Origin: Candidatus Baltobacteraceae bacterium
GTDB lineage: Bacteria; Vulcanimicrobiota; Vulcanimicrobiia; Vulcanimicrobiales; Vulcanimicrobiaceae
Assembly (NCBI GenBank): GCA_036488875.1
Contig: DASXGW010000008.1
Span: 248,001-312,000, forward strand
Direction of reading: 5' to 3'
DNA length: 64,000 bases
Part shown: one piece after another, positions 22,226-62,432 of the stretch
Numbering within the stretch: the stretch's first letter is position 1
Layout: each line of letters starts with the position of its first letter
The notes under the pieces: generated by a model
The model's input: the letters and a program-made list of their open reading frames with translations, nothing else
The model's database searches: none
What the model was told of the DNA's origin: nothing
Made by a program: the position numbers and the translations under genes

Positions 22226-22301
22226 CGAGCGTCTCTTGCCCCCACTATTACGGAAATCCGCCATAGGAGCGGGGCGCGTCCCAAGCTACGATTATGGCCG
22301 G

Positions 22302-23270
22302 ATGCAGCTCCTCGAAGGGGAACCATACGTCGCGGTTATCCGCGGCGGTGTGGTCGAGTCGGTTCACAACGTCGCCGGATATGCCGTCGACGCGCGTGGC
22401 ATGCCCATCTTTTCGTTCGGCGCGGTCGACGTGCCGATCTACCTGCGCTCGGCGGCAAAGCCGTTCATCGCCGCGGCGGCCGTCGCCGCCGGCGTCGTCG
22501 AACGCTTTGGCCTGGAGGCGCGCGAGATCGCCGTCATGGCGGCATCGCACTCGGCCGAGTCGTTTCATCTGGAGACCGTGCGCTCCATCCTACGAAAAAT
22601 CGGCTTGGACGAAAGCGCGCTGCGTTGCGGTCCGGAGCCGCCTTTCATCGAGTCGATCACGAACAACTGCTCGGGCAAGCACGCGGGCATCCTGGCGCTG
22701 TGCATCGCCGTCGGGGCCGATCCCGCGACCTATCTCGATCCCTCCAACCCCGCGCAGCAGCGCATCCTCTCGTTTTGCGCGCGCGCGTCGGACGAAAAGC
22801 TCGAAACTTTGACGATCGCGGTCGACGGCTGCGGCATCCCGGTGTACGCGACGACCTTGCAAAAGGCGGCGCTGTCGTACCGGCGCCTGGCCACGCTCGA
22901 CGATCTCGATCCGAGCGACGCGCGGGCGCTGCGCATCGTGCGCGACGCGATGATCCTCAATCCGGAATACATGTCGGGAACCGGCGAGTTCGACGCGGCG
23001 ATGATTCGCGCGTATGAGGGGTCGCTGGTCTGTAAGGGCGGTGCCGAGGGCATCTTCGCCGGGGCCCTGATCGACGAACGCATCGGCTTCGTGATCAAGG
23101 TCATCGACGGCAACGAGCGGGCTCGGCCGCCGGCCGCGTGCGAAGCCCTTCGCCTGGCCGGACTGATGACGGAAACGCAGCTCCAGCGCGTGCGGACCTT
23201 CGCGCGTCCCGTCGTCAAGAACAAGAGCGGAAGGGTCGTGGGGGAGATACGGGCGATTCTCGATCGATGA
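22302..23270 (+). CDS. Zn-dependent L-asparaginase II (Rhizobium AnsA/ReAV type)
   Basis: 322 residues from the ATG at 22302. It hydrolyses asparagine to aspartate and ammonia. Residues described for the Rhizobium etli inducible enzyme are present with identical local spacing: Ser50 and Lys53 in RSAAKP, Cys123 and Lys126 in NNCSGKHAG, Asp175 and Cys177 in VDGCG, that is the Ser-Lys pair and the Cys/Lys/Cys zinc site. The first gene of a three-gene operon; its stop overlaps the start of the binding-protein/peptidase fusion (ATGA). Context suggests release and use of nitrogen from Asp/Asn-containing peptides. Confidence 0.92.
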   Translation: MQLLEGEPYVAVIRGGVVESVHNVAGYAVDARGMPIFSFGAVDVPIYLRSAAKPFIAAAAVAAGVVERFGLEAREIAVMAASHSAESFHLETVRSILRKIGLDESALRCGPEPPFIESITNNCSGKHAGILALCIAVGADPATYLDPSNPAQQRILSFCARASDEKLETLTIAVDGCGIPVYATTLQKAALSYRRLATLDDLDPSDARALRIVRDAMILNPEYMSGTGEFDAAMIRAYEGSLVCKGGAEGIFAGALIDERIGFVIKVIDGNERARPPAACEALRLAGLMTETQLQRVRTFARPVVKNKSGRVVGEIRAILDR

Positions 23271-25855
23271 TGCGCCGACTCGTCTTGGCGATGGTCGCGG
23301 CGGCTCTCCTCGCCGCTTGCGGGCGCCACGCCCCCGCTCCCGGCACCCTGGCGATCGCGCAGCAGTGGGAGCCGCGGTCGCTCAACCCCGCGCTGGAAAA
23401 CGGGACGTCGTCGACGCAATGGTCGATGCTGGTCTTCTCGTATCTCGTCAAATACGACGATAGCGGGAACCTCATCCCCGACATCGTGACCGAAGTGCCG
23501 ACCTTGCAAAACGGCGGCATTAGTGCCGACGGCAAGACGATTACGTATCACATTCGCAAAGGCATCCGCTTCGCCGACGGCACGCCGTTGACGGCGGCCG
23601 ACGCCGCGTGGTCGATCATGGCGATCAATAATCCAAAGAACAACGTGCAAACGCGCTTCGCGTACGATCAAGTGATTTCTGCCGACGCGCCCAATCCCAC
23701 CACGCTGGTTCTCCATCTCAAGAAGACGTTTCCGCCGCTGATCGTTACGGTGGGCGCGCCGCAGGGATTCCCGATCCTCCCTAAGCACGAACTCGCATCG
23801 CTGCCCGACATCAACTCGGCGCCGTTCAATCGTGCACCGTTCGGATCGGGCCCGTACATGGTTACTAACTGGGCTCCGGGCGATCGCGTCGAGCTCAAGG
23901 CCAATCCGTACTACTGGCAAGGTAAGCCGGGCATCTCGCACATTACCATTCGATTCATCGCCAACGCGCAGACGGCACTCAACATGCTGCGCACGCACGA
24001 AGTCGACGGTTACTTCGACTCACAGGATTACGGTATCTATCCGATCCTGCAGAGCATTCCCGGATACGTCGTTACGAGCACGCCGCAAAATGCGGTCGGT
24101 GCGATCATTTTCAACACGCAGGATCCGGTTACGAAAGATCCGCGCGTTCGTCACGCGTTAGCCGAAGCGATCGACATTCGGAGCACCGTTTCGAAAGCCT
24201 ATTTAAAGACCCTCGACAGCCGGCACGCGGGCGCGGGACTCTTCTTGTGGGCGTTCGACCCGAGCGCATACCCGGACGTTCCCTACGATCCGGCCGATGC
24301 ACGAAAACTGTTCGACGCGGCCGGTTGGCACGTGGGTGCCGACGGCATCCGTCAGAAGAACGGCGTTCCGCTGCACGTGCTGCTCATTTTGCAAGCCGAG
24401 ACGCCGGCCGACGGCGTCGCAGCGAACGACATCGCGCAGTACGAGCGCGCCGTCGGTGTGGGCGTGACGCTCAAGCAGTATCAAGTGACGCAGTTCGTCG
24501 CGCCGCCCGACCAAGGCGGCCCGGTCTACGGCGGCAAGTTCCAAATGGCGCTCTACTCGTTCGAAAACGGCGACGATCCCGACACGACCGACCAGTTTGC
24601 GTGCGCCAACGTTCCGCCCAACGGCTACAATAAGTCGCGCGTCTGCGATCCGCGTATCGACGCGCTGCTGCACCAAGGGCTGTCAACCTACGATCCGGCG
24701 GCGCGCAAGGCTACCTACGTGCAGCTGCAAAAGCTGCTCTACGACGAGTTGCCCATCGCGCTCATCTACCGCCGCACGCAAGTCAACGCATTCTCCGACG
24801 ACATCGTGAATCAAACGACGTCGCCCGCGGCGGGCGCGTGGTGGGACGTCGCGCATTGGACGTTCTGCCAGCCGCGCGTCTATCCGCCGGTGGGCAGCTA
24901 TAAACGCACGCCGACGCCGTTGCGGGGTCCCGGGTTGATTCTCGAGGGCGGCGGCACCGACATCGACGCGGAGTGGCATTGGGCGCACGCGACGATTTCG
25001 GGCGGATCCAAGGCGCGCTTCGGCAACGTGGTCGTGCTGCGCGCCGACGGCACCGACGACTACGATCCGTACATCTTGCCGCTGGGGCCGTTCCAGTCGG
25101 TGCGAACCATCATCATTCCGCACTGCCTGTCGCGCGAACAAGTCGACGCGTTGGCGCCGTACGTCGACGGTGCCGACGTGCTGTTCTTCTCGGGCGGCGA
25201 TCAAGCGAACTACGCACCGTGGAAAGGCAGCAAGCTGATCGACGCGGTGCGCAACGTGTGGAAGCGCGGCGGCGTTGAGGGAGGCACGAGCGCAGGCTTG
25301 GCGATTCAAGGTGCGGTCGGATACGATTCCGTCGCCGCCGACCGGCTGCATCCCAACGACGACGGGTTCGAGGTGCGCACGCCCGACGCGCTGCGCAATC
25401 CGTTCGAGCCCGAGATCAGCTTTACGAGCGACCTGCTCGTGTGGCCGCCGCTGCGCAACGTGATTACCGACACGCACTTCGCGCGGCGCGATCGTTTCGG
25501 GCGCTTGGTCACGTTCCTGGCGCGCATCGAACACGACCGCCGGTTGCCGACCGGCACGTTCTACGGATTGGCCGTCGACGAGCGCAGCGTGCTGCTCACC
25601 GATCGCAACGGCATCGCGACCTTGGCCGAATATCCCGGCAGCGGTTATGCCACGCGCGGAGCGTACCTGATCCATCTCGTCAACGTGCAGCAGCTGACCC
25701 CCGGCAAGCCGCTGAAGGCGACCGTCGAGGTGCTCCATCTCGACCATCCGGGCGCAAAACTCGACCTGAAGACCAAGGCAGGAGACGGCCCGATCTACCG
25801 CGTGACCGTGGACGGCAGCAAAACCTCACCTTATAGCCGAAACCCGTTCGAGTGA
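23267..25855 (+). CDS. Oligopeptide-binding lipoprotein fused to cyanophycinase-like S51 peptidase
   Basis: 862 residues in one uninterrupted frame from the ATG at 23267. Residues 1-19 are a lipoprotein signal with lipobox LLAAC. Residues about 25-545 are a family-5 extracellular solute-binding protein (ITYHIRKGIRFADGTPLTAAD, GSGPYMV, DPRVRHALAEAID). After a Pro-rich linker (VYPPVGSYKRTPTPLRG), residues about 553-862 match cyanophycinase/peptidase S51: ILEGGGTDID, a nucleophile elbow GGTSAG with Ser675, and TDTHFARRDRFGR with His737. S51 enzymes cleave beta-Asp-Arg or Asp-X bonds. The domain pair suggests capture and cleavage of Asp-rich peptides at the cell surface. No permease genes are adjacent. 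Confidence 0.85.
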   Translation: MMRRLVLAMVAAALLAACGRHAPAPGTLAIAQQWEPRSLNPALENGTSSTQWSMLVFSYLVKYDDSGNLIPDIVTEVPTLQNGGISADGKTITYHIRKGIRFADGTPLTAADAAWSIMAINNPKNNVQTRFAYDQVISADAPNPTTLVLHLKKTFPPLIVTVGAPQGFPILPKHELASLPDINSAPFNRAPFGSGPYMVTNWAPGDRVELKANPYYWQGKPGISHITIRFIANAQTALNMLRTHEVDGYFDSQDYGIYPILQSIPGYVVTSTPQNAVGAIIFNTQDPVTKDPRVRHALAEAIDIRSTVSKAYLKTLDSRHAGAGLFLWAFDPSAYPDVPYDPADARKLFDAAGWHVGADGIRQKNGVPLHVLLILQAETPADGVAANDIAQYERAVGVGVTLKQYQVTQFVAPPDQGGPVYGGKFQMALYSFENGDDPDTTDQFACANVPPNGYNKSRVCDPRIDALLHQGLSTYDPAARKATYVQLQKLLYDELPIALIYRRTQVNAFSDDIVNQTTSPAAGAWWDVAHWTFCQPRVYPPVGSYKRTPTPLRGPGLILEGGGTDIDAEWHWAHATISGGSKARFGNVVVLRADGTDDYDPYILPLGPFQSVRTIIIPHCLSREQVDALAPYVDGADVLFFSGGDQANYAPWKGSKLIDAVRNVWKRGGVEGGTSAGLAIQGAVGYDSVAADRLHPNDDGFEVRTPDALRNPFEPEISFTSDLLVWPPLRNVITDTHFARRDRFGRLVTFLARIEHDRRLPTGTFYGLAVDERSVLLTDRNGIATLAEYPGSGYATRGAYLIHLVNVQQLTPGKPLKATVEVLHLDHPGAKLDLKTKAGDGPIYRVTVDGSKTSPYSRNPFE

Positions 25856-28533
25856 TCTCTCCCGCTGCTTTCTCCGACGCATTCGTCGGGCGGCAAGAAG
25901 AACTGGAGCTGCTCGCCGACGCGTTTCGCAGCGCGTGCGACGGACGATCGCGCTTCGTGCGAATCGAAGGCGAAGCGGGCATCGGCAAATCGCGCCTCGT
26001 GCGCGAATTCTCCGGGCGGCTCGGCGATTCGGCAGTCATTGCGGCCGGCGGCTGCGTCGAACAGATTCGCCGGCCGTATCTGCCCATCGAACAAGTGCTC
26101 GAGCGGCTCGGGCGCCGTCCCCGTCTTCCGGCGCCGTACGACGGACGCACGCACGCCGAAGAGCGCGCGGCGTACTTTCAAGGCGTCGCCGAAGCGCTCG
26201 AGCGCGAATCCGCGCGCAAACCGCTGGCGATCGTGATCGAAGACGTGCAATGGGCCGACGACGCGACGATCGATCTGCTGCGCTACCTCACCACCGCGAT
26301 CGAAGAAGCGCGCGTGCTAGTGATTATTACGGTGCGCACGGCGACGATGCTGTCCAATCCGGCACTCGCAGCGCTGCGCTTGAGCCTGCTGCGCGTGCGC
26401 GGTCCCTCGATCGTGCTGCGCGGACTGCGCCGGTTCGACATCCGCAACCTCATCGGCAACGTCGTGCGCGATCACGAAACCGAGATTCCGCTGCAAACGA
26501 TTGCCAAGATCGAGTCGCTCTGCGACGGAAATCCGTTGTTTGCCGAAGAGTTGACGCGCATCGCGATCGATTCGGGCGAGATCGTGCTGGGCACGTCGTC
26601 GCCGCTCTCGGCGCACGCAATGCTCAGCGAACGTCTCGCGACCTTTTCCGAAGACGAGCGCAGCGTGCTGGTTCGCGCGGCGATCGTCGGCCAGCACTTC
26701 GACTCGGGCTTCGTGGCCGAGATCGCCGGCACGACCACCGACCGCGTGCTCGCGACCATGCAGCGCGCGCTCGATCACGAGCTGGTCATCACCGACCGCG
26801 TGCATCCGCACCGGTTTGCGTTTCGCCATTCGCTGATCCGGCAGGTATTGGCCGACCGGCTCGTGCTGGGATTGGCGGCCCCGCTGCACTTGCGCATCGC
26901 GCGCGGCATCGAAAACGGACAGCACGCGTCGAAGCGTGCAGCCGAGTTGGCGTTTCACTATTCGGAGGCGCGCGTCGCCGATAAAGCGCGCTATTATAAC
27001 GAGCTCGCGGCGCAGGCGGCGTGGGACGTCTACGCCTACCGCGACGCGATTCACTTTTATAGCGCGGCGCTGCAGTGGGACTATCCGCCGGGGCTCGCGC
27101 GCGCCGCGATTTACGAACGGCTCGGCACGCTGCTCTATATCGAAGGCGTCGGCGAAGAACCCGCGCGCTGGTTCGAGCGCGCGCGCGCCGAGTACGAGCA
27201 AATCGAAGACGAGATCGGCTACTGCCAAGCACTGTTGATGATCGCCGATCAGCGCTGGGTCGACGCGCGCACGTCGGAAGGCGCGCAAGCCGCGTCCGAA
27301 GCGGCGGTGCGTCTCGAGCGTTTGGGTGAGACGCGTCCGTGGCTCTCCGCAACGCTGTCGGTGGCGCGCTACGCGGTGACGCTCGGCGATCCGCAGCGCG
27401 CGGCGGCCCTCCTCGACGACATCGGCCGCCGGCACGCGCATTTCGACGCGCCGCTCAACGTCGCGTTTTACGAAGTGCGCGCCGAGACGCGCGCGGCGTT
27501 GGGTCAAGCGGCCGGTGCGCTCGCCGACGGCGCGCACGCGGTGCGGCTCGCGCGCGAAACCGGTTCGAGCGAGCTGGTCGCGCAGGTCGAAAATAACGTC
27601 GCGCTCGTCGCGGCCGATTTGGGCGAGCTCGACCTCGCGGGCGAGCACCATCGAAGCGCGCTGGCCGAAGCGCACCGCACCGGATTGCTCTGGCGCGTGG
27701 CGTATTGCGCGCTCAACTACGCGCAGACGCTGGCGTGGAGCGGCGAGTTAACGCGCGCGCGTGCGATGGTACTGGAAGCGCTCGATTGCGGCGTTACGAC
27801 GGCGACGTTCAAAACGAAAGCCGCGGCGGTGGGCGTTCCGATCGCGCTCGCGCTCAACGATCGCGCGCTGTTGCTCGCGTGTGCGGACGACCGGGCGCTC
27901 GAGTACGCGCGTCAGTCGGGTGAGATTCAGCGCGTCGCCGCCGGCGGCGCCGCATTTGCCGAACTGCTTCGCGCGCAAGGTGATGCCGCGCGGGCGCGCA
28001 CGACGCTCAGCGAAACCGTCGCATCGGTCGAGACGAGCCATCGCGCTTGGAATCTGTGGTCCTACGTCGCGTTATGCGGGCGTCCGGCCGACCTGGAACG
28101 AGCGCGGGACGTCTTGGCCCGGTCGACGGGCAGGCCGCGGATGATGCGCGCGCACCGGCTCCTGCTCGCCGGGCACTACGCGGCTGCCGAACGCGTCTTT
28201 GCGCGGCTGGGATTCCGCTGGCACGCTGCGTTGAGCGCCGAGCTGGCCGGCGATCGCGAACGCGCCCGGCAGTCCTACGAAGCTATGGGCGCCGTGCGTG
28301 ACGCAGCCCGCCTGGCCGAACCGCACGTTGACGGCAAGCCCGGCAGCGGCCTGACGGCGCGCCAAACGCAGATTGCCGAACTCGTGGCACAGGGCGAGAT
28401 CAATCGCACGATCGCGGCCCGCCTCCATATCAGCGAGCACACCGTCGAGCACCATTTGACCGGAATTTTCGCACGGCTGGGCGTCAAATCGCGCGCGCAG
28501 CTGATCGCGCGCTGGATCGGCTCGCGCTCATAG
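25852..28533 (+). CDS. LuxR-family ATPase transcriptional regulator (LAL/MalT-like)
   Basis: 893 residues from a GTG overlapping the previous stop by four bases. The N-terminal AAA_16-type NTPase has FVGRQEELELL and Walker A GEAGIGKS at residues 40-47, with a Walker-B-like IVIEDVQWADD. The middle is a long Ala-rich helical region resembling TPR repeats. The C-terminal 60 residues are a LuxR helix-turn-helix (LTARQTQIAELVAQGEINRT, then HISEHTVEHHL). Translational coupling suggests that it senses a ligand, perhaps a peptide or amino acid, and controls the asparaginase/peptidase operon. That ligand is inference. Confidence 0.88.
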   Translation: MISPAAFSDAFVGRQEELELLADAFRSACDGRSRFVRIEGEAGIGKSRLVREFSGRLGDSAVIAAGGCVEQIRRPYLPIEQVLERLGRRPRLPAPYDGRTHAEERAAYFQGVAEALERESARKPLAIVIEDVQWADDATIDLLRYLTTAIEEARVLVIITVRTATMLSNPALAALRLSLLRVRGPSIVLRGLRRFDIRNLIGNVVRDHETEIPLQTIAKIESLCDGNPLFAEELTRIAIDSGEIVLGTSSPLSAHAMLSERLATFSEDERSVLVRAAIVGQHFDSGFVAEIAGTTTDRVLATMQRALDHELVITDRVHPHRFAFRHSLIRQVLADRLVLGLAAPLHLRIARGIENGQHASKRAAELAFHYSEARVADKARYYNELAAQAAWDVYAYRDAIHFYSAALQWDYPPGLARAAIYERLGTLLYIEGVGEEPARWFERARAEYEQIEDEIGYCQALLMIADQRWVDARTSEGAQAASEAAVRLERLGETRPWLSATLSVARYAVTLGDPQRAAALLDDIGRRHAHFDAPLNVAFYEVRAETRAALGQAAGALADGAHAVRLARETGSSELVAQVENNVALVAADLGELDLAGEHHRSALAEAHRTGLLWRVAYCALNYAQTLAWSGELTRARAMVLEALDCGVTTATFKTKAAAVGVPIALALNDRALLLACADDRALEYARQSGEIQRVAAGGAAFAELLRAQGDAARARTTLSETVASVETSHRAWNLWSYVALCGRPADLERARDVLARSTGRPRMMRAHRLLLAGHYAAAERVFARLGFRWHAALSAELAGDRERARQSYEAMGAVRDAARLAEPHVDGKPGSGLTARQTQIAELVAQGEINRTIAARLHISEHTVEHHLTGIFARLGVKSRAQLIARWIGSRS

Positions 28534-28604: not shown

Positions 28605-31600
28605 ATGAACGTTTCGCTTATTCACCGCACCGCGGGCGCTTTTCTGGCGCTGGCGCTCGTGCTTTCACCCGTCTCGAGCGTCGTTGCCGGGACCACCGGA
28701 TCGATCACCGGTACGGTCGTGGATGCGACGGCTCACGCGCCGATCGCTGGAGCGGCCGTCACGGTCGTCAGCCCGTCGCAGATCGCAACCGTCACTACCG
28801 ACGCGTCCGGGCGGTTCACGTTCATCTCCCTCGCTCCGGACACGTACACGGTCTCCGCGCGTAAGGCCGGCTATGACGAACAGTCCGTGGCCGGCATCTC
28901 GGTGTTCGCCGATCAGAGCCAATCGGTCCCCGTCGCGCTTCAAAAGAGTCTCAAGCAGATCGCGCACGTTACCTCGCGCTCCTCGCTCAGCCCGGTTCGT
29001 CCCGGCACCGGAACCGACGTCTACTCGGTGAATCCGGCAGTCGCGACCGCCTCCGCCACGCTGGGCGGCGGCGGCGGAATGAACACCGCCTATTCGGCCA
29101 TCGCGGCGATGCCCGGCGCGTACGTGCCGCCCAACCAGGTCGGCGTCAATCAGACCGTCTATATTCGCGGCGGTTACTACGATCAAATCGGATTTGAGTA
29201 CGACGGCGTTCCGGTTAACCGGTCGTTCGATAACTATCCCAGCAGTGGTTTGACGACGCTGGGCCAACAAGAGCTGCAGATTTATACCGGCGGCGGCGAG
29301 GCCGACGCCAACGCCACCGGCCTGGGCGGCTTCATCAACCAGGTTATTAAGACGGGCACGTTTCCGGGTTACGCGGTCGGCGGCTTGGCCATGGGGACGC
29401 CCACGTTCTATCACGACGCACGCGTTGAAGTCGGCGGTGCGACGCCCGACCGGCTCTTCTCGTACTACGTGGGCGTGAGCGGGACGAATCAGGCGTTCCG
29501 TTACTTCGACCAATACAACGGCGCCAGTCTGAGCGATACGGTTCCCTACGGAACGTATCCGTCGGACGAGACGACCAATCTGGCGTTCTTCCCCGCGGTG
29601 TATCCCACGTGCAACGCCAACACGACCTACACGAACCCGGCGGCAAACGGTGCTCACGCGTTCCTTTATAAGGATCCCGGTTGTTTCGGCTATTTCCCCG
29701 CAAACTACGGACAGCCGTCCGACGTCGATGACCGGCAGGTCGTCGCCAACATGCACTTCGGCGTACCGCACAAGAACGACAGCGGCCGCGACGACATCCA
29801 GTTGCTGTACATGTCGTCGGCGACGTTCACGCAGTACTACTCCAGCGTCAACGACGCGGGCCCGCTGGGCTTGGGCATCGTCAATAGCGGCACTCTCAAC
29901 TATCACGACTTCTACGCGGGCCTTACCAATCAGTGGGGTGATTTCTACACCTTCCCCGGCGGAACGAAGTGGCTTGCACCGGCCTCGACGCCGCCGATCG
30001 CGTATCTGTACCCCGGCTCGCCGACCGGCCGCTGCGCCAATGTCGTTGGCGTTCCCGGCGCCTGTCCGGAAGATGCGCGGGGCAATCAGGAAACCGTACA
30101 GATTCCCAATGATTATCGCGACGGACGCTGGGACACGGCAGGCATCGTCAAGCTGCAGTATCAGAAAAACATGGGCTCCAACGCCTACCTGCGTCTATTC
30201 GGCTACACCTTTTATTCCAACACCAACCGCGCGACCGCCAACGGCTGGGGCAACGCGTACGCGTTCGGCGTAACCAACTATCAGTACGAAGTCGACTCGC
30301 ACACGCGCGGACTCGAGTTGCAGTTTGCGGATCAAATCTCGAGCTCCAACTTGGTGAGCGGCATGCTGTCGTACTTGGACTCCGGTACGCTGCGGTATTA
30401 CAGTCACCAGTACGACAACACCGGTTCGGCACAGGTCAGTAACTTCACCGACGGCAACATCTGTTACAGCACGAAGGACACGAAGCACTATCCGATCGGC
30501 CATCCCGCGCCGTGCAACAAGGCCATATCGCAGGGATTCTTCAGTGCGCCCTACGGCTACAACGTCGATACCCAGGATCCGTGCGCGGCCGGGGAAGTCC
30601 CGGCGAACTCGCCGGCGTGCCGCAACGGCGCCGCGATGAATCTCACGTACCTCGGCAACAACGCCGACTACAACTCGGTTATGCCGAAGGTCAGCAGCGG
30701 TTCGATACAGGACCAATGGCGCCCGACGGATCGCTGGAATCTCAACGCGGCGCTCCGCTACGAAAACGATACCTTCGATTTGGCAAACACGGATAACCCC
30801 GGCACGAACTTCTGGTTCAATGCGGCGCAGCGCGAGTTCTGCGTCAATCCGGTCACCCGGCAGCCGATCTTCGTTCCGCAGCCGCCGCAGTACATCTACT
30901 ACTATCAGCCGCTCGTGACGTTCCACTGCCCGATCGATCGTTCCACCGGAACTGCGATTCAAACGGTGCATCCCAACGGTACCGACGGCATTCTGCTGAC
31001 GAACAACTATCCGTCGCAGTACAGCCAGACGTATTTCCTGCCGCGCCTCTCGCTGACGTACGCGGCCAGCCCCGATACCGTGTTCCGCGCTTCGGCCGGA
31101 CGTTACGCGCAAGCGCCGCAAAACTACGAGATTCAGTATGCGACCGCACAGCCGAATCTCGCGTCGACCTTGCTCGGGTTCATTCCCTTCGGGTTCAACT
31201 CGCCGCTGCATCCGTCGCAAGCGCAGTTCTCAAATAACTACGACGTTTCGTGGGAGCAGCATTTGCGGGGAACGGACATCGCGTTCAAGGTAACGCCGTA
31301 TTTCCGCTGGGGAACCAATCAGCTCTATGAATCGGTCGATCTCCCGAGCCTCGGCGTCTCGCCGTCGTTCAACGCAGGAACGCTTCGCGTGGACGGTGTG
31401 GAGTTCGAACTCACCAAGGGCGATTTCGACAAGAACGGCTTGTCGGGTATTTTCTCGTACACGTACACGAACTCGTCCGAGAAGTGGGGAGACTATCCCA
31501 ACAGCACCATCGGTCCGGTCGATCAGTACATTCAAGATATCCAAGAGTTCAACGCCCTGACCAAGAAGGGCGGCGGCGCACCCTGCTACACGCCGGATCG

Positions 31601-32363
31601 TACCGGAACGGCGGCACCCGGCTGTCCGTCAACGTCGATTCGCAATCCGTACTATGCGATGGCGCCGCAGCCGCTGCTCGACCCGCACGCGTGGTATACC
31701 ACGGGACTGGATTACCCGTACCTATCGCCCAACACGTTCTCGCTCGTCTTGAACTATCGTCATGGAAAGTTCGCGTTCACTCCGGCGATGTCGCTGCAAG
31801 AGGGAACGACCTACGGAAATCCGTCCGACGTCCAGGGCATGGATCCGCGTTCCTGTTACTCCAACCAGCGCACCTCCGGCGTTCCCTCGAGCACGCCGCT
31901 CAATGCCGATTACACGTCGTGCAGCCACGCGCTCACGAGTGACGGAACCACGCCCGGCAAGCTGTACATCCCCAATCCGCAGACCGGCACGTTCGACCAG
32001 TTCGGTCAGTTCCAGCAGCCTTGGCAGTTCAATCTCGGCGCGCAGTTGTCGTATGACGTATCGCCGCGCATTACCACGAAGTTCATCGTCACGAACATCC
32101 TCAACACGTGCTTCGGCGGCTCGAGTACGCCATGGACGAAAGCCTATCCGCCGGGCGGCTTCACGTGCGCCTATACGTACAACAAGTTCTACAACAACGG
32201 GAACAACTTCAACGAGGGAACCTCAGCGTACGATCTCAGGGCGAACGGCGTCGCGGAGAATCCATACTTTGCGAACTCGTTCGTACCGTCGTACGGCGAT
32301 CCGTTCTCAGGGAACTATCCGCTCGCACTGAACATGTACTTCTCGGTGAACGTCAAGCTCTAA
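28605..32363 (+). CDS. TonB-dependent receptor with N-terminal carboxypeptidase-regulatory-like domain
   Basis: 1252 residues, ATG with strong GGAGG upstream. A Sec signal (AGAFLALALVLSPVSSVVAG) is followed by a CarboxypepD_reg-like domain at about 30-115 (GSITGTVVDATAHAPIAGA...SGRFTFISLAPDTYTV). The plug domain comes next (VYIRGGYYDQIGFEYDGVPV, GGFINQVIKTG), then a long beta-barrel rich in Tyr, Asn and Pro ending in FSVNVKL, as expected for outer-membrane insertion. The layout is that of Oar/SusC-like receptors of Acidobacteria and related groups. The substrate is unknown. Downstream are two NHL-type lipoproteins that could be surface partners. Confidence 0.9.
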   Translation: MNVSLIHRTAGAFLALALVLSPVSSVVAGTTGSITGTVVDATAHAPIAGAAVTVVSPSQIATVTTDASGRFTFISLAPDTYTVSARKAGYDEQSVAGISVFADQSQSVPVALQKSLKQIAHVTSRSSLSPVRPGTGTDVYSVNPAVATASATLGGGGGMNTAYSAIAAMPGAYVPPNQVGVNQTVYIRGGYYDQIGFEYDGVPVNRSFDNYPSSGLTTLGQQELQIYTGGGEADANATGLGGFINQVIKTGTFPGYAVGGLAMGTPTFYHDARVEVGGATPDRLFSYYVGVSGTNQAFRYFDQYNGASLSDTVPYGTYPSDETTNLAFFPAVYPTCNANTTYTNPAANGAHAFLYKDPGCFGYFPANYGQPSDVDDRQVVANMHFGVPHKNDSGRDDIQLLYMSSATFTQYYSSVNDAGPLGLGIVNSGTLNYHDFYAGLTNQWGDFYTFPGGTKWLAPASTPPIAYLYPGSPTGRCANVVGVPGACPEDARGNQETVQIPNDYRDGRWDTAGIVKLQYQKNMGSNAYLRLFGYTFYSNTNRATANGWGNAYAFGVTNYQYEVDSHTRGLELQFADQISSSNLVSGMLSYLDSGTLRYYSHQYDNTGSAQVSNFTDGNICYSTKDTKHYPIGHPAPCNKAISQGFFSAPYGYNVDTQDPCAAGEVPANSPACRNGAAMNLTYLGNNADYNSVMPKVSSGSIQDQWRPTDRWNLNAALRYENDTFDLANTDNPGTNFWFNAAQREFCVNPVTRQPIFVPQPPQYIYYYQPLVTFHCPIDRSTGTAIQTVHPNGTDGILLTNNYPSQYSQTYFLPRLSLTYAASPDTVFRASAGRYAQAPQNYEIQYATAQPNLASTLLGFIPFGFNSPLHPSQAQFSNNYDVSWEQHLRGTDIAFKVTPYFRWGTNQLYESVDLPSLGVSPSFNAGTLRVDGVEFELTKGDFDKNGLSGIFSYTYTNSSEKWGDYPNSTIGPVDQYIQDIQEFNALTKKGGGAPCYTPDRTGTAAPGCPSTSIRNPYYAMAPQPLLDPHAWYTTGLDYPYLSPNTFSLVLNYRHGKFAFTPAMSLQEGTTYGNPSDVQGMDPRSCYSNQRTSGVPSSTPLNADYTSCSHALTSDGTTPGKLYIPNPQTGTFDQFGQFQQPWQFNLGAQLSYDVSPRITTKFIVTNILNTCFGGSSTPWTKAYPPGGFTCAYTYNKFYNNGNNFNEGTSAYDLRANGVAENPYFANSFVPSYGDPFSGNYPLALNMYFSVNVKL

Positions 32364-57829: not shown

Positions 57830-57867
57830 AGGGGAGCTACGATGACAAGGGGAGCTACGATGACAAG
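57823..57867. repeat. 18-bp tandem repeat at the end of a dispersed repeat
   Basis: The unit GATGACAAGGGGAGCTAC occurs at 57823-57840 and 57841-57858, followed by a partial third copy GATGACAAG to 57867. The second unit and partial third contain the last codons and the stop of the C39-like gene. The GATGACA part is the terminus of the dispersed repeat. Confidence 0.9.
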
Positions 57868-58745
57868 ACGTCGGCGTAGTCGATGCCGGCCGGCGCGATC
57901 ACGAAGGCGACGCCGTTGTTGCGTTGCCAGATCCGCTCGATCGCGGCGCGCGGGTAGACGGCGCGCACGTGCGGCGCCGCCGGATCGTTCACCGCGCAGT
58001 CGCCCGTGCTCGTAAAGCCGGTCAGCACCACGAGATGTCCGTCGCTGCGTTCGATCGGCGCACCCGGCAGCTCGCCAGGCGCCCACGAGTACGACAGCAC
58101 CAGCGGAAGATTGCGTTCGATGAGGCGCTGCGCGTGATCGAGATTACGGAAGTGCCCGACGACGGCCCGCAAGCCGAGGCTGCCGGAAAACGCCGCGTTG
58201 AACGACCAGTTGCCCGTTCCGTTGTACGCGCGGTCGAAGATGGCGCGCGCGGTATCTTCGACCGAAACGTCGACACCGTGATACGCATTGACCATCGAAA
58301 GACTCGCGGCGCTGCACCAGCCGCGTTCGCCCTCCTTGACGTATTGCGAGCGCGTGGGAACGTCGAGGATGTGCGCGCCGCGCGCGTACGGCAGCGACGG
58401 CACGGGGCGCCCCGGCGCGGAGAACGCGACGAGGTTGAACTCGACCTCGCGCGCGCGCACCTCGATCCCGTCGAAGAGGCGGTCGCAGCTCAGCACGTCG
58501 ACGTCGACGTGTACGCCTCCGCCGTCGGGACTGAACGACTTCGAGCCGGTCGGATGCCACTCGGCGAAGTTCATCCAGGACGTCGCCGGCGCGTGCGCCT
58601 GGAGCAGACGAAACTCGATGCGTCCGGCCGGCGCGAAGGTGTTCCAACTCAAGACGCCGCCGCGCGACGGCGTTAGCAGCAGCCGTGCGCTTTCGCGCGC
58701 GCCGGTCACTTGCGCGAATCCGGAAAGCTCCTCTAGATGCTCCAT
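57855..58745 (-). CDS. C39-like cysteine protease family protein
   Basis: 296 residues from the ATG at 58745 (GGAA upstream), overlapping the binding-protein gene by 13 bases. The N-terminal 130 residues are beta-rich. The C-terminal half is a papain-like C39_2 domain: GERGWCSAASLSMVNAYHG with the candidate nucleophile Cys, SDGHLVVLTGF with the His and VNDPAAP with an Asp. No signal peptide is evident. Last gene of the dgc-like operon; a role in trimming peptides delivered by the neighbouring binding protein is inference. Its last residues are encoded by a tandem repeat. Confidence 0.72.
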   Translation of the reverse strand: MEHLEELSGFAQVTGARESARLLLTPSRGGVLSWNTFAPAGRIEFRLLQAHAPATSWMNFAEWHPTGSKSFSPDGGGVHVDVDVLSCDRLFDGIEVRAREVEFNLVAFSAPGRPVPSLPYARGAHILDVPTRSQYVKEGERGWCSAASLSMVNAYHGVDVSVEDTARAIFDRAYNGTGNWSFNAAFSGSLGLRAVVGHFRNLDHAQRLIERNLPLVLSYSWAPGELPGAPIERSDGHLVVLTGFTSTGDCAVNDPAAPHVRAVYPRAAIERIWQRNNGVAFVIAPAGIDYADVLSS

Positions 58746-60355
58746 TGCCAGGCGTTCCACGTGTCGGCTAAAAATGCGGCCGGCTCGTAGTTCTTGACGT
58801 CCGTATTGACCGCCGTGTAGTTCATTTGCCAGCTGAAGAACACGCTGGGCACCAGTTCGCGTATGCGCTCCTCTTCGCGCTGATAGAGCGCTTTGCGTTT
58901 AGCCGGATCGAAGGTGCTCGCGGCCGCTTCGCTGGTGGCGTTGACGATCGGATCGTTGAGCCACGTCGTATTGGCGCCGTTGGGCGGAATGTACGCCGCG
59001 CTCCAGTTGCCGGTGTTGTCGGGATCGGGGCCGTTCGTGTCGACCGACCATTCCAGATCGTACTTGCCGGTGTAGAGCGGGCCGTTCTGCGCGAACAGAT
59101 AGCTGCCGGGGAAGTTGCGCACCATCAAGTCGATGCCCAGCGGGTGCAGAAACGACTGCATCATGACTTGAGATTGCGTGTTCTCTTCGTGGCCGGTGGT
59201 CGCATAGATCGTCAAGTGCATCGCGAGGGGCCCTTTGTGCAGCACGCCGTCGCCGCCCATCTTCCAGCCCGCGTCAGCCAGCAGCTTGCGTGCGTCGTTG
59301 GGGTCGTAGCGGTACGGCGGCAGGGCCGGTGCGGCCCACAGCAGCGGATAGACGTCGGAAACGGCGAGCCGATCGTAGCCGCGATAAATCGTGTCGTTGA
59401 TGCGCTTCCAATCGACGGCTTCGGAGATGGCGCGGCGGACGCGCACGTCGGCGAGCAGCGGATGGCTCAAGTTCATGTCGAGATGCCGCCAGTTTCCGAT
59501 GAGCCGCCTGTCGACCGCGATGCCTTGGATCGTAGCGAGCCGCGCGATCGCGCTCGGCGGCGTGACCGCCGGATACACGTCGACTTCGTGCGTCGCGAGC
59601 TGATTGAAGAGCGTGTTCGTGTCCGGAACGACCTTCCAGATGAGTTCCTTGAGTTTCGGCGCGCCGCGGAAGTAGCGCGGATTGGGAACGAACTCCAGCG
59701 ACGAACCGTGGTTCCAGGCTTTGAGCAGATACGGTCCGCTGGAAATCGGCTTGCTGTTGAACTCCGACGAGTTGATGTTCGGTGACTTTGCGAGAAGATG
59801 TGCGGGCATCGGCGGATACGCGGCGCCGCTCATGGTCAGAATACCCAGCACCTCGACGCTGGGGCGTTTGAGGTGCAGCACGATCGTATAGGGATTCGGC
59901 GCGCTCGCCGATGCGATCAGATCCCAGCCGTAGCGCGTCTTGACGTTGTTCTGTGGGTTCATCACCGCGCGATACGTGAAGAGCCAGTCGGCCGCGGTCA
60001 ACGGCGCACCGTCGGACCACACGACGCCTTTGCGCAGATGCACGACGATCGTCCTGCCGTCGCGCGAGATGCCCCCGTTGGCCGGCGTCGGAACCGCGGT
60101 TGCCAAATCGGGAATGTAGTTGCCGTTCGCATCGACCCGCATGAGAAACGAGAAGAGCAGCGGCGCAATATTATCGGTGGCCCACGTGTGACCGTACATC
60201 AAGTTGAGACTGTCGGGTTCCTCGGGAGCGCCGATCCGCAAGACGCCGGGGATCGTCCACGGATTCCGATTGCCCGTGCCGGTGCTCTGGGGTTTCGAGC
60301 AGGCCGCGCACGCGGCCGCCAACGCGATCGCGAGGAGGCGGCGCGCCAGACTCAC
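58733..60355 (-). CDS. Oligopeptide-binding lipoprotein (SBP family 5)
   Basis: 540 residues from a GTG overlapping the previous stop (GTGA). Lipoprotein signal with lipobox CAACS. The family-5 fold is shown by VLRIGAPEEPDSLNLMYG, IVVHLRKGVVWSDGAPLTAAD and DVRVRRAISEAVDWKRIN. It is clearly homologous to the N-terminal half of the fusion at 23267 but ends without the S51 domain. No permease or ATPase genes follow. In this operon it probably supplies peptides or muropeptides to the epimerase and DUF1611 enzymes. Confidence 0.9.
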   Translation of the reverse strand: MSLARRLLAIALAAACAACSKPQSTGTGNRNPWTIPGVLRIGAPEEPDSLNLMYGHTWATDNIAPLLFSFLMRVDANGNYIPDLATAVPTPANGGISRDGRTIVVHLRKGVVWSDGAPLTAADWLFTYRAVMNPQNNVKTRYGWDLIASASAPNPYTIVLHLKRPSVEVLGILTMSGAAYPPMPAHLLAKSPNINSSEFNSKPISSGPYLLKAWNHGSSLEFVPNPRYFRGAPKLKELIWKVVPDTNTLFNQLATHEVDVYPAVTPPSAIARLATIQGIAVDRRLIGNWRHLDMNLSHPLLADVRVRRAISEAVDWKRINDTIYRGYDRLAVSDVYPLLWAAPALPPYRYDPNDARKLLADAGWKMGGDGVLHKGPLAMHLTIYATTGHEENTQSQVMMQSFLHPLGIDLMVRNFPGSYLFAQNGPLYTGKYDLEWSVDTNGPDPDNTGNWSAAYIPPNGANTTWLNDPIVNATSEAAASTFDPAKRKALYQREEERIRELVPSVFFSWQMNYTAVNTDVKNYEPAAFLADTWNAWQWSI

Positions 60356-61416
60356 GCCGGCGCGATCCGCAGCAGCGACCGCTTCTCGATGTGCGGCGCG
60401 ATCTCGTCGTAAAAACGATAGGGTAGGTGCCGCACGACGTCATCGACGGGGAGGCCCGTTTCGCGCCGCGCGCGGCCGATCTCTTCGCCGGCGCGCTCGT
60501 CGGAGAGTCCGCGCGTATTGAGCGCGATGCCGATCACTTTTGCGGGCTTGATCGTAGCAAGCAGTCTTTCGTGGATATCGATGAGGTCGCGATAGCTCAA
60601 GGTCGGCGTTTCGAACGATTCGATGTGCGTGCGCGTCGGATCGCAAACGAGCACCAACCCGTCGGGCGCCGATCCGGTCATCAGCGCCAGCGTTACCGGG
60701 GCGTACGCGGGATGGTTGATCGAGCCCTGACCCTCGACGACGATGAGATCGGCGCCTTCGTGCGCGGCGTAGAGCACGAGTTGCTCCGTTGCGCCGGGAG
60801 CAAAATCCGAGATCACGCGATCCACCGAGATACCCCAGCCCGCGATCATGATGCCGGTCTGTCCCGTCGGCACGAAGCGCGCTTTGGTTCCCTTTTCCGT
60901 TGCGGCGCGAACGAGCTCGAGTGCGACCGTCATTTTGCCGACGGCGCAATCGTTGCCCACCATCAAGAGAATCGGCGCGACTACGTCGTAGACGGCGCCG
61001 CTGAAGATCGGCGTGTCCGGCGGTTTGCGTACGTCCCAAATCTCCACGCCGGCGCTCTCGGCTGCCGCTCGAAACTCGTCGTCGTCGCCGAGCATGTCGT
61101 GCAGGCCGCTCACAATTTCCAGTTTTGCCGCGATCGCGTCGAGCACGGCCTGACGCCAATCGTCCGGCAGTGCGCCACCCTTGGGCGCGGTGCCTATGAG
61201 CAATGAGGTCGGTTTAAACTCGAGTGCCCGATCGACCGTCGCGACGATCGGCGCGGTGCTGCGCAGATGCGGCAGTACGTCGGCGACGGTTTTGCCGGCG
61301 TATTCGGCATCGATGACCGCGACGACGTCGTCCGCACCGTAGGCAATGACGCCGTGCGCGGTTTTCGCGTCCCCGGCGAAACGTCCGGGCGCGAGAATGG
61401 CGTACCGGCGCTTCAC
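60352..61416 (-). CDS. DUF1611 protein, DgcN-like (D-glutamate N-acyltransferase candidate)
   Basis: 354 residues from the GTG at 61416, overlapping the epimerase stop (GTGA). An N-terminal Rossmann-like domain (RYAILAPGRFAGDAKTAHGV, LLIGTAPKGGALPDDW) precedes a P-loop domain with MVGNDCAVGKMTVALEL and VVEGQGSINHPAYAPV, the DUF1611 layout. Family members named DgcN were reported to N-acetylate D-glutamate together with a DgcA racemase; the adjacent epimerase fits that pair. DUF1611 proteins of other function exist, so the assignment rests on family plus context. Confidence 0.82.
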   Translation of the reverse strand: MKRRYAILAPGRFAGDAKTAHGVIAYGADDVVAVIDAEYAGKTVADVLPHLRSTAPIVATVDRALEFKPTSLLIGTAPKGGALPDDWRQAVLDAIAAKLEIVSGLHDMLGDDDEFRAAAESAGVEIWDVRKPPDTPIFSGAVYDVVAPILLMVGNDCAVGKMTVALELVRAATEKGTKARFVPTGQTGIMIAGWGISVDRVISDFAPGATEQLVLYAAHEGADLIVVEGQGSINHPAYAPVTLALMTGSAPDGLVLVCDPTRTHIESFETPTLSYRDLIDIHERLLATIKPAKVIGIALNTRGLSDERAGEEIGRARRETGLPVDDVVRHLPYRFYDEIAPHIEKRSLLRIAPA

Positions 61417-62432
61417 GTCAGCGCCGTTTCTTTCACACCTAAACCGGGAGCATCGGGAAGTACGATCTTTCCGCGATCGTACGTGATGCCGGCAAACGGA
61501 TCGCGTGCGGTCAAAAACGGGCCGTCGATGTCGGCCCAATCGACCAGCGGCGAGAGGTGAGCGGCCGCGGTTGCGGCGATCGCGCTCTCGACCATGCAGC
61601 CGAGCATGACCTTCATGCCCATCGCACGCGCCGTGTGAATCATCGCAAGTGCGCCGCGGATACCGCCGGTCTTGGCGAGCTTGACGTTGACGCCGTCGAC
61701 GCAACCGTAGAGCTGCGGCAGATCGCTTGCGACCATCGAATCTTCATCGGTAACGATAGGGATCGATACGCGCTCGCGAACGGCGCGCAGGCCTTGCGGA
61801 TTTCCGGCCGGAATCGGCTGCTCGCAGAACTCAATGTCGAAGCGCTCGAGCTCGCGCAAAACCTCCACCGCCGTTTCGACGTCCCAACCTTCGTTGGCGT
61901 CGATGCGAACGATACCGCGATACCGCTGCCGAATCAGCGTCATCGTTTCGACTTGCTCGGCAACCGAGCCGAGTCCGAGCTTCACCTTGAGAATCGGATG
62001 ATCGCCCACTTCGGCAACCTTGCGGATCGTCGTTTCGGGATCCGCGATGCCGATCGTGAACGACGTGACCGGGGTCAACGACGGATCGAGCCCGAGCAGC
62101 GCGTACAGCGGCTTACCGAGGTCTTTTCCGATCAGGTCGTGCAGCGCCAGGTCCAGACCGCCGCGCGCGGCGGGCGGAATGCCGTCGTGCAGCAGCGCTT
62201 CGAGGTTATACGGATCGTCCGACGCGAGTGCGTGCGTCGCAAAGTAGTCGATGACGCTTTCAACCGACTCGTCGTAGCGCTCGACCGGCGCGGCTTCGCC
62301 CAATCCCTCGAGCTCGCCGTATCTGACGCGCACCAGCGCCGTGCGGGAGACCGTCTCTTCGCCGCGCGCGATCTTAAACGGATGGACGAGCGGCAGCTCC
62401 AGCGATGAAACCGAAACCGAAAGCGCTGACAT
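61413..62432 (-). CDS. Enolase-superfamily dipeptide/N-acyl-amino-acid epimerase (DgcA-like)
   Basis: 339 residues. TIM-barrel acid-base epimerase with Lys149/Lys151 in LKVKLG, metal ligands Asp178 (DANEGW), Glu204 (FCEQP) and Asp229 (TDED), Lys254 in KLAKTGG, and Asp301-x-Asp303 in WADIDGP. The DxD is the element that holds the dipeptide N-terminus in L-Ala-D/L-Glu epimerases. With the following DUF1611 gene it resembles the DgcA-DgcN pair, in which DgcA racemises N-acetyl-D-glutamate. Either role leads from D-Glu to L-Glu. First gene of the four-gene operon; the candidate RNA lies just upstream. Confidence 0.88.
   Translation of the reverse strand: MSALSVSVSSLELPLVHPFKIARGEETVSRTALVRVRYGELEGLGEAAPVERYDESVESVIDYFATHALASDDPYNLEALLHDGIPPAARGGLDLALHDLIGKDLGKPLYALLGLDPSLTPVTSFTIGIADPETTIRKVAEVGDHPILKVKLGLGSVAEQVETMTLIRQRYRGIVRIDANEGWDVETAVEVLRELERFDIEFCEQPIPAGNPQGLRAVRERVSIPIVTDEDSMVASDLPQLYGCVDGVNVKLAKTGGIRGALAMIHTARAMGMKVMLGCMVESAIAATAAAHLSPLVDWADIDGPFLTARDPFAGITYDRGKIVLPDAPGLGVKETALT

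Follow-up and report, generated by a model that had tools for sequence, protein, structure and literature searches.

The window, a 64,000-nucleotide stretch from the genome of a soil bacterium from Eremiobacterota, an uncultured phylum (source genome, G000), contains a gene that encodes a family-5 solute-binding protein (SBP) and a cyanophycinase-like S51 peptidase in a single chain. Its frame is open throughout its 862 codons. The fusion gene lies between an Asparaginase_II gene, which overlaps the fusion start by 4 nt (ATGA), and the gene of a LAL-type regulator, and a TonB-dependent receptor-like gene follows (Table 1).

Table 1 Features of the fusion locus. Coordinates refer to the window and residue numbers to the fusion protein.
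Feature	Coordinates	Strand	Basis
Asparaginase_II (PF06089) gene, probable start ATG 22302, no export signal	22302..23270	+	Pfam; PDB relatives; position in G047 and G049
SBP_bac_5 / cyanophycinase-like S51 fusion gene, 862 aa	23267..25855	+	Translation; same fusion in G047 and G049
Lipoprotein signal peptide, lipobox LAAC, Cys18	23267..23320	+	Sequence; the fusions of G047 and G049 and the separate SBPs have a similar lipobox
Family-5 solute-binding domain, residues 27-531	23345..24859	+	PF00496; PDB family-5 SBPs; ends of separate homologues
Cyanophycinase-fold S51 domain, residues 534-862, from the mature N-terminus of stand-alone homologues	24866..25852	+	Model, Foldseek, alignments
GGDQ motif; Gln646 (CphB Gln101)	25193..25204	+	Profile alignment to 3EN0; roles from PMC3235067
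GGTSAG nucleophile motif; Ser675 (CphB Ser132)	25280..25297	+	Alignments
DTHFARRDRFGR; Asp735, Thr736, His737, Arg741, Arg743, Arg746	25469..25504	+	Alignments; PMC3235067
Glu772 (CphB catalytic Glu201)	25580..25582	+	Alignments
LAL-type regulator (AAA_16 ATPase, LuxR/GerE DNA-binding domain)	25852..28533	+	Pfam; overlaps the fusion stop
TonB-dependent receptor-like outer-membrane protein, CarboxypepD_reg domain	28605..32363	+	Pfam; conserved neighbour of stand-alone S51 genes

The N-terminal half possesses the lipobox that a sequence-only reading of the locus had described, as inspection confirms, and the same reading was right to call this half a complete family-5 binding protein. The Pfam family SBP_bac_5 (PF00496) matches residues 84–440 with 235.2 bits (gathering score of 32.4) and over most of the model (positions 11–352 of 368), and searches of this half against the PDB return family-5 SBPs with E-values down to 2.8e-34. 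In alignment with separate SBPs, which stop near the equivalent of Trp531, the binding domain ends at approximately that residue, and the conserved part of the stand-alone S51 proteins, which directly follows their signal peptides, begins at the equivalent of Cys534. The SBP is therefore joined to the mature N-terminus of the S51 protein, and the stretch that had been taken for a Pro-rich linker is no linker but a conserved S51 segment (YPPVGSY...GPGL) common to the stand-alone homologues. These homologues carry N-terminal export signals of their own, so export is the norm for the S51 domain, and the lipobox of the SBP is predicted to take it over in the fusion. The full-length structure model has a pLDDT of 67.6, too poor for use on the domain arrangement or on channelling.

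The C-terminal half is predicted to adopt the cyanophycinase fold. Its model, built with 67 aligned sequences, has a mean pLDDT of 96.6 and a pTM of 0.94, and the best PDB matches found with Foldseek are the cyanophycinases 3EN0, 7UQW and 7UQV (E of ~1e-15 and TM-scores of 0.73–0.78 by target length). A cyanophycinase-like nature had been proposed from the sequence and is upheld by the fold, the pocket, the neighbouring genes and the S51–IaaA fusions described below; dipeptidase E was rejected as the closest relative because peptidase E entries rank under all cyanophycinase chains. The sequence identity with solved cyanophycinases is just 15–21%. The cyanophycinase equivalog of NCBIfam, TIGR02069, matches residues 631–782 with 46.3 bits, below its cut-off of 126.6. 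Peptidase_S51 (PF03575) does not appear among the Pfam matches of the full-length protein of the window, and the G049 fusion scores 20.2 bits against it, under the gathering score of 23.9. With the single S51 half as the query, phmmer found no match in the PDB, whereas a profile matched 3EN0.

At nine of the nine active-site and pocket positions, the S51 domain has a residue found in cyanophycinases. Asp735, Thr736, His737, Arg741, Arg743 and Arg746 align in the 3EN0 profile alignment with CphB Asp172, Gln173, His174, Arg178, Arg180 and Arg183, the catalytic and pocket residues of CphB having been assigned their roles previously (PMC3235067). Thr736, the single departure from CphB among the nine, matches Thr223 of the extracellular CphE, for which the change from Gln to Thr at the CphB 173 position has been reported (PMC3235067). 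Ser675 of the GGTSAG motif and His737, both picked out in the sequence-only reading, are found at those positions, align with CphB Ser132 and His174, and are invariant in all 30 close relatives aligned and in all 67 sequences of the wider alignment. The three fusions all have Glu at position 772, where some stand-alone paralogues have Gln or Ala instead. By alignment and model, the catalytic site of the fusion S51 domain is predicted to be intact, and the suspicion that this domain might lack a folded active site was dispelled by the model. The PDB entry 7UQV, which is among the nearest relatives, was deposited under the name 'pseudo-CphB', and cyanophycin cleavage therefore does not necessarily follow from a cyanophycinase-like site; a limited literature search found nothing useful on 'pseudo-CphB' or on SBP–peptidase fusions.

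The fusion is genuine, and a small number of Eremiobacterota conserve it. When 149 genomes of the phylum were searched at the protein level, the same chain was detected in G047 and G049, with an identity of 71–72% over the full length; both genomes belong to a genus other than that of the window. The two halves are separate genes in several relatives, which might suggest that an assembly or sequencing error joined two neighbouring genes in the window. Such an artefact is extremely improbable, because the junction is identical in G047 and G049, which were assembled separately. Moreover, the separate genes run from S51 to SBP, the reverse of the order in the fusion, so stop-codon loss, read-through or an assembly slip cannot yield it. 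The single-frame architecture noted from the sequence is thereby corroborated, and the idea that homologues are always two genes, misassembled here, fails. Nei–Gojobori dN/dS values of ~0.1–0.3 on each half indicate purifying selection on both. The three fused SBPs form one clade in the SBP tree (SH-aLRT of 97), and the three fused S51 domains group with the stand-alone S51 protein of G073 in a tree that gives no order among them. Among the best 80 contig loci, outside which lie 276 weaker matches, only the G047 and G049 fusions hold both halves in one frame, with no further case in the other 78. Across 396 genomes from the phylum to which L111 (a Pyrinomonadaceae record) belongs, S51-matching open frames reach at most 663 aa, which is too short for this fusion.

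In other genera, the genes for the regulator, TonB receptor, S9 peptidase, S51, SBP and Asparaginase_II recur as a cluster of varying order and completeness. The separate S51 and SBP genes adjoin in G060, G108, G093 and G017 and are near-adjacent in G058, and the LAL-type regulator adjoins the TonB gene of the cluster in G058, G107, G108 and G093. G073, from the genus of the window, has an S51 gene with a plausible export signal between purH and a TonB gene; a protein search of this genome found no close SBP homologue. The S9 peptidase lies within the cluster of G060, G107 and G108. Its assignment as a lasso-peptide isopeptidase was set aside: the isopeptidase-like and Dpp5-like scores are approximately equal, and both fall under cut-off. 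A second, stand-alone S51 paralogue of the source genome (G000:C7:181880-182833, L072) is ~40% identical and has its own lipobox.

The Asparaginase_II protein scores 329.7 bits with PF06089 on the longer frame 22236–23270, has L-asparaginase II proteins as its nearest PDB relatives and lacks a signal peptide. Its gene adjoins the fusion at the same place in G047 and G049, and it adjoins or lies near the S51 gene in seven genomes, each with no more than two PF06089 copies. In the source genome, the cluster copy has a lower PF06089 score than the other copy, at G000:C7:73079-74044.

Cyanophycin is a storage polymer of aspartate and arginine. Cyanophycin synthetase (CphA) was not found in the source genome and is above cut-off in 5 of the 149 genomes of the phylum (0 in the family of the window); a cyanophycin-type substrate would therefore come from outside, and recycling of the cell's own cyanophycin was rejected as an explanation. 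The source genome contains a single IaaA-like gene and lacks IadA. Among ten tested genomes with an S51 gene, IaaA is missing in seven and IadA is above cut-off in none. Within the best 80 S51 relatives, L144 (Brevundimonas; L144:7815-9797) and L163 (Proteobacteria; L163:7668-9845) encode S51 and the isoaspartyl peptidase IaaA (PF01112) in a single chain with the same DTHF..R.R..R motif; in L167 (Stenotrophomonas), IaaA lies 115 bp from the S51 gene. The S51–IaaA chains may be two-step cyanophycin degraders in one protein. Cyanophycinase genes also cluster with isoaspartyl dipeptidases, and often with transporters, in genomes without cphA1, and these clusters have been read as scavenging loci (PMC10206079). 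The S51–IaaA fusions and these loci are independent pointers to beta-aspartyl substrates for S51, and the fusions provide such a hint for a large family of secreted cyanophycinase-like proteins that have no assigned role. A different arrangement is present in Peribacillus and Bacillus (L142:8881-11442, L148, L152 and L157), where the genes of proteins of ~840–854 aa with S51-matching stretches follow immediately downstream of another, shorter S51 gene; L142 and L157, both of which were scanned, each have two such stretches in this protein.

No permease gene was recognised in the clusters examined. The source genome encodes 19 family-5 SBPs (PF00496 loci) and one Opp/Dpp-type permease pair (~C13:73073-74996, L185), which adjoins none of the 19 SBP genes. 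Among the neighbours of the SBP genes are genes for unrelated enzymes, for example an M16 peptidase, EF-G and isocitrate dehydrogenase.

We consider it probable that the fusion protein is a tethered capture-and-cut lipoprotein that cleaves cyanophycin-like or isoaspartyl peptides outside the cytoplasm, either at the periplasmic face or at the cell surface, its product being caught for import. The TonB receptor would pass the substrate across the outer membrane, and the S51 domain, to judge from its active site, fold and gene partners a cyanophycinase-type serine exopeptidase, would cleave fragments of cyanophycin or comparable peptides with beta-linked aspartyl residues. The tethered family-5 domain may hold the substrate or catch the dipeptides set free, such as beta-Asp-Arg, and could deliver dipeptides to the shared Opp/Dpp permease; either the cytoplasmic Asparaginase_II of the cluster or the separate IaaA of the genome would complete the hydrolysis. 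The interpretation in the sequence-only reading is borne out in part: the single chain, a catalytic site that is intact and a cyanophycinase-like enzyme are supported, and the description of the linker was wrong. That direct hand-over of the product to a tethered SBP, together with a PF06089 'asparaginase' replacing the isoaspartyl-dipeptidase step of IaaA or IadA, constitutes a new type of scavenging system for isoaspartyl peptides or cyanophycin is a more speculative proposal, and we regard it as unlikely.

The S51 domain might instead be a general extracytoplasmic aspartyl or isoaspartyl peptidase that scavenges aged proteins (isoAsp) or Asp-rich soil peptides rather than cyanophycin. The S9 peptidase that shares the cluster in three genomes would suit such a role, as would the 'pseudo-CphB' label of the closest PDB match by sequence. 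However, the whole CphB/CphE pocket is retained, including the three arginines, and the fold matches dipeptidase E structures clearly less well; we judge this alternative not very likely. It is also conceivable that the binding domain has lost its transport role and serves to hold the substrate, or to sense it, while tethering the peptidase to the membrane, as the clusters devoid of a recognised permease, the excess of SBPs over permeases in the genome and the LuxR-type regulator gene adjoining the fusion gene might suggest. Several SBPs per permease are, however, known: DppA1–A5 of Pseudomonas aeruginosa share one DppBCDF permease (PMC4206461). By dN/dS, the binding domain is moreover under selection no weaker than that on the enzyme domain. 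A binding domain without a function in transport is quite improbable.

The S51 domain resembles CphB (3EN0, 7UQW) and the extracellular CphE of Pseudomonas in its fold, its Ser-His-Glu residues, its GGDQ motif and its DxHFxxRxRxxR pocket, and shares with CphE the Thr in place of CphB Gln173 and the export. Unlike these enzymes, it is under the TIGR02069 cut-off, distant in sequence from CphB-type structures, fused to an SBP and encoded in a genome without cphA. The binding half has the entire domain and the lipobox of family-5 SBPs such as NikA, GsiB, AppA and DppA; unlike them, it bears a C-terminal peptidase and has no permease genes beside it. The SBP fold is reused as a module of a larger chain in MltF and SgrR, as in the present fusion, but MltF combines a family-3 SBP with a lytic transglycosylase and SgrR is cytoplasmic. 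As in the described cyanophycin-scavenging loci (PMC10206079), the S51 gene is clustered with a gene for an asparaginase-type amide hydrolase and with uptake proteins in a genome without cphA; those loci combine cyanophycinase with IadA or IaaA and a transporter, whereas here the hydrolase is PF06089 Asparaginase_II, a TonB receptor is present, the SBP is fused and the cluster has no permease.

The fusion offers a natural single-chain capture-and-cut protein, and an uncultured soil phylum gains a plausible and testable route of nitrogen scavenging. The gene neighbourhood also ties PF06089 asparaginases to cyanophycinase-like enzymes, a link that a limited literature search did not find. Elsewhere in the window, on the minus strand, the genes of a C39_2 peptidase and of a second SBP_bac_5 protein overlap, close to an MR_MLE (dipeptide-epimerase-like) gene (57855–60355 and 61413–62432), and these genes possibly form a locus for the scavenging of murein peptides.
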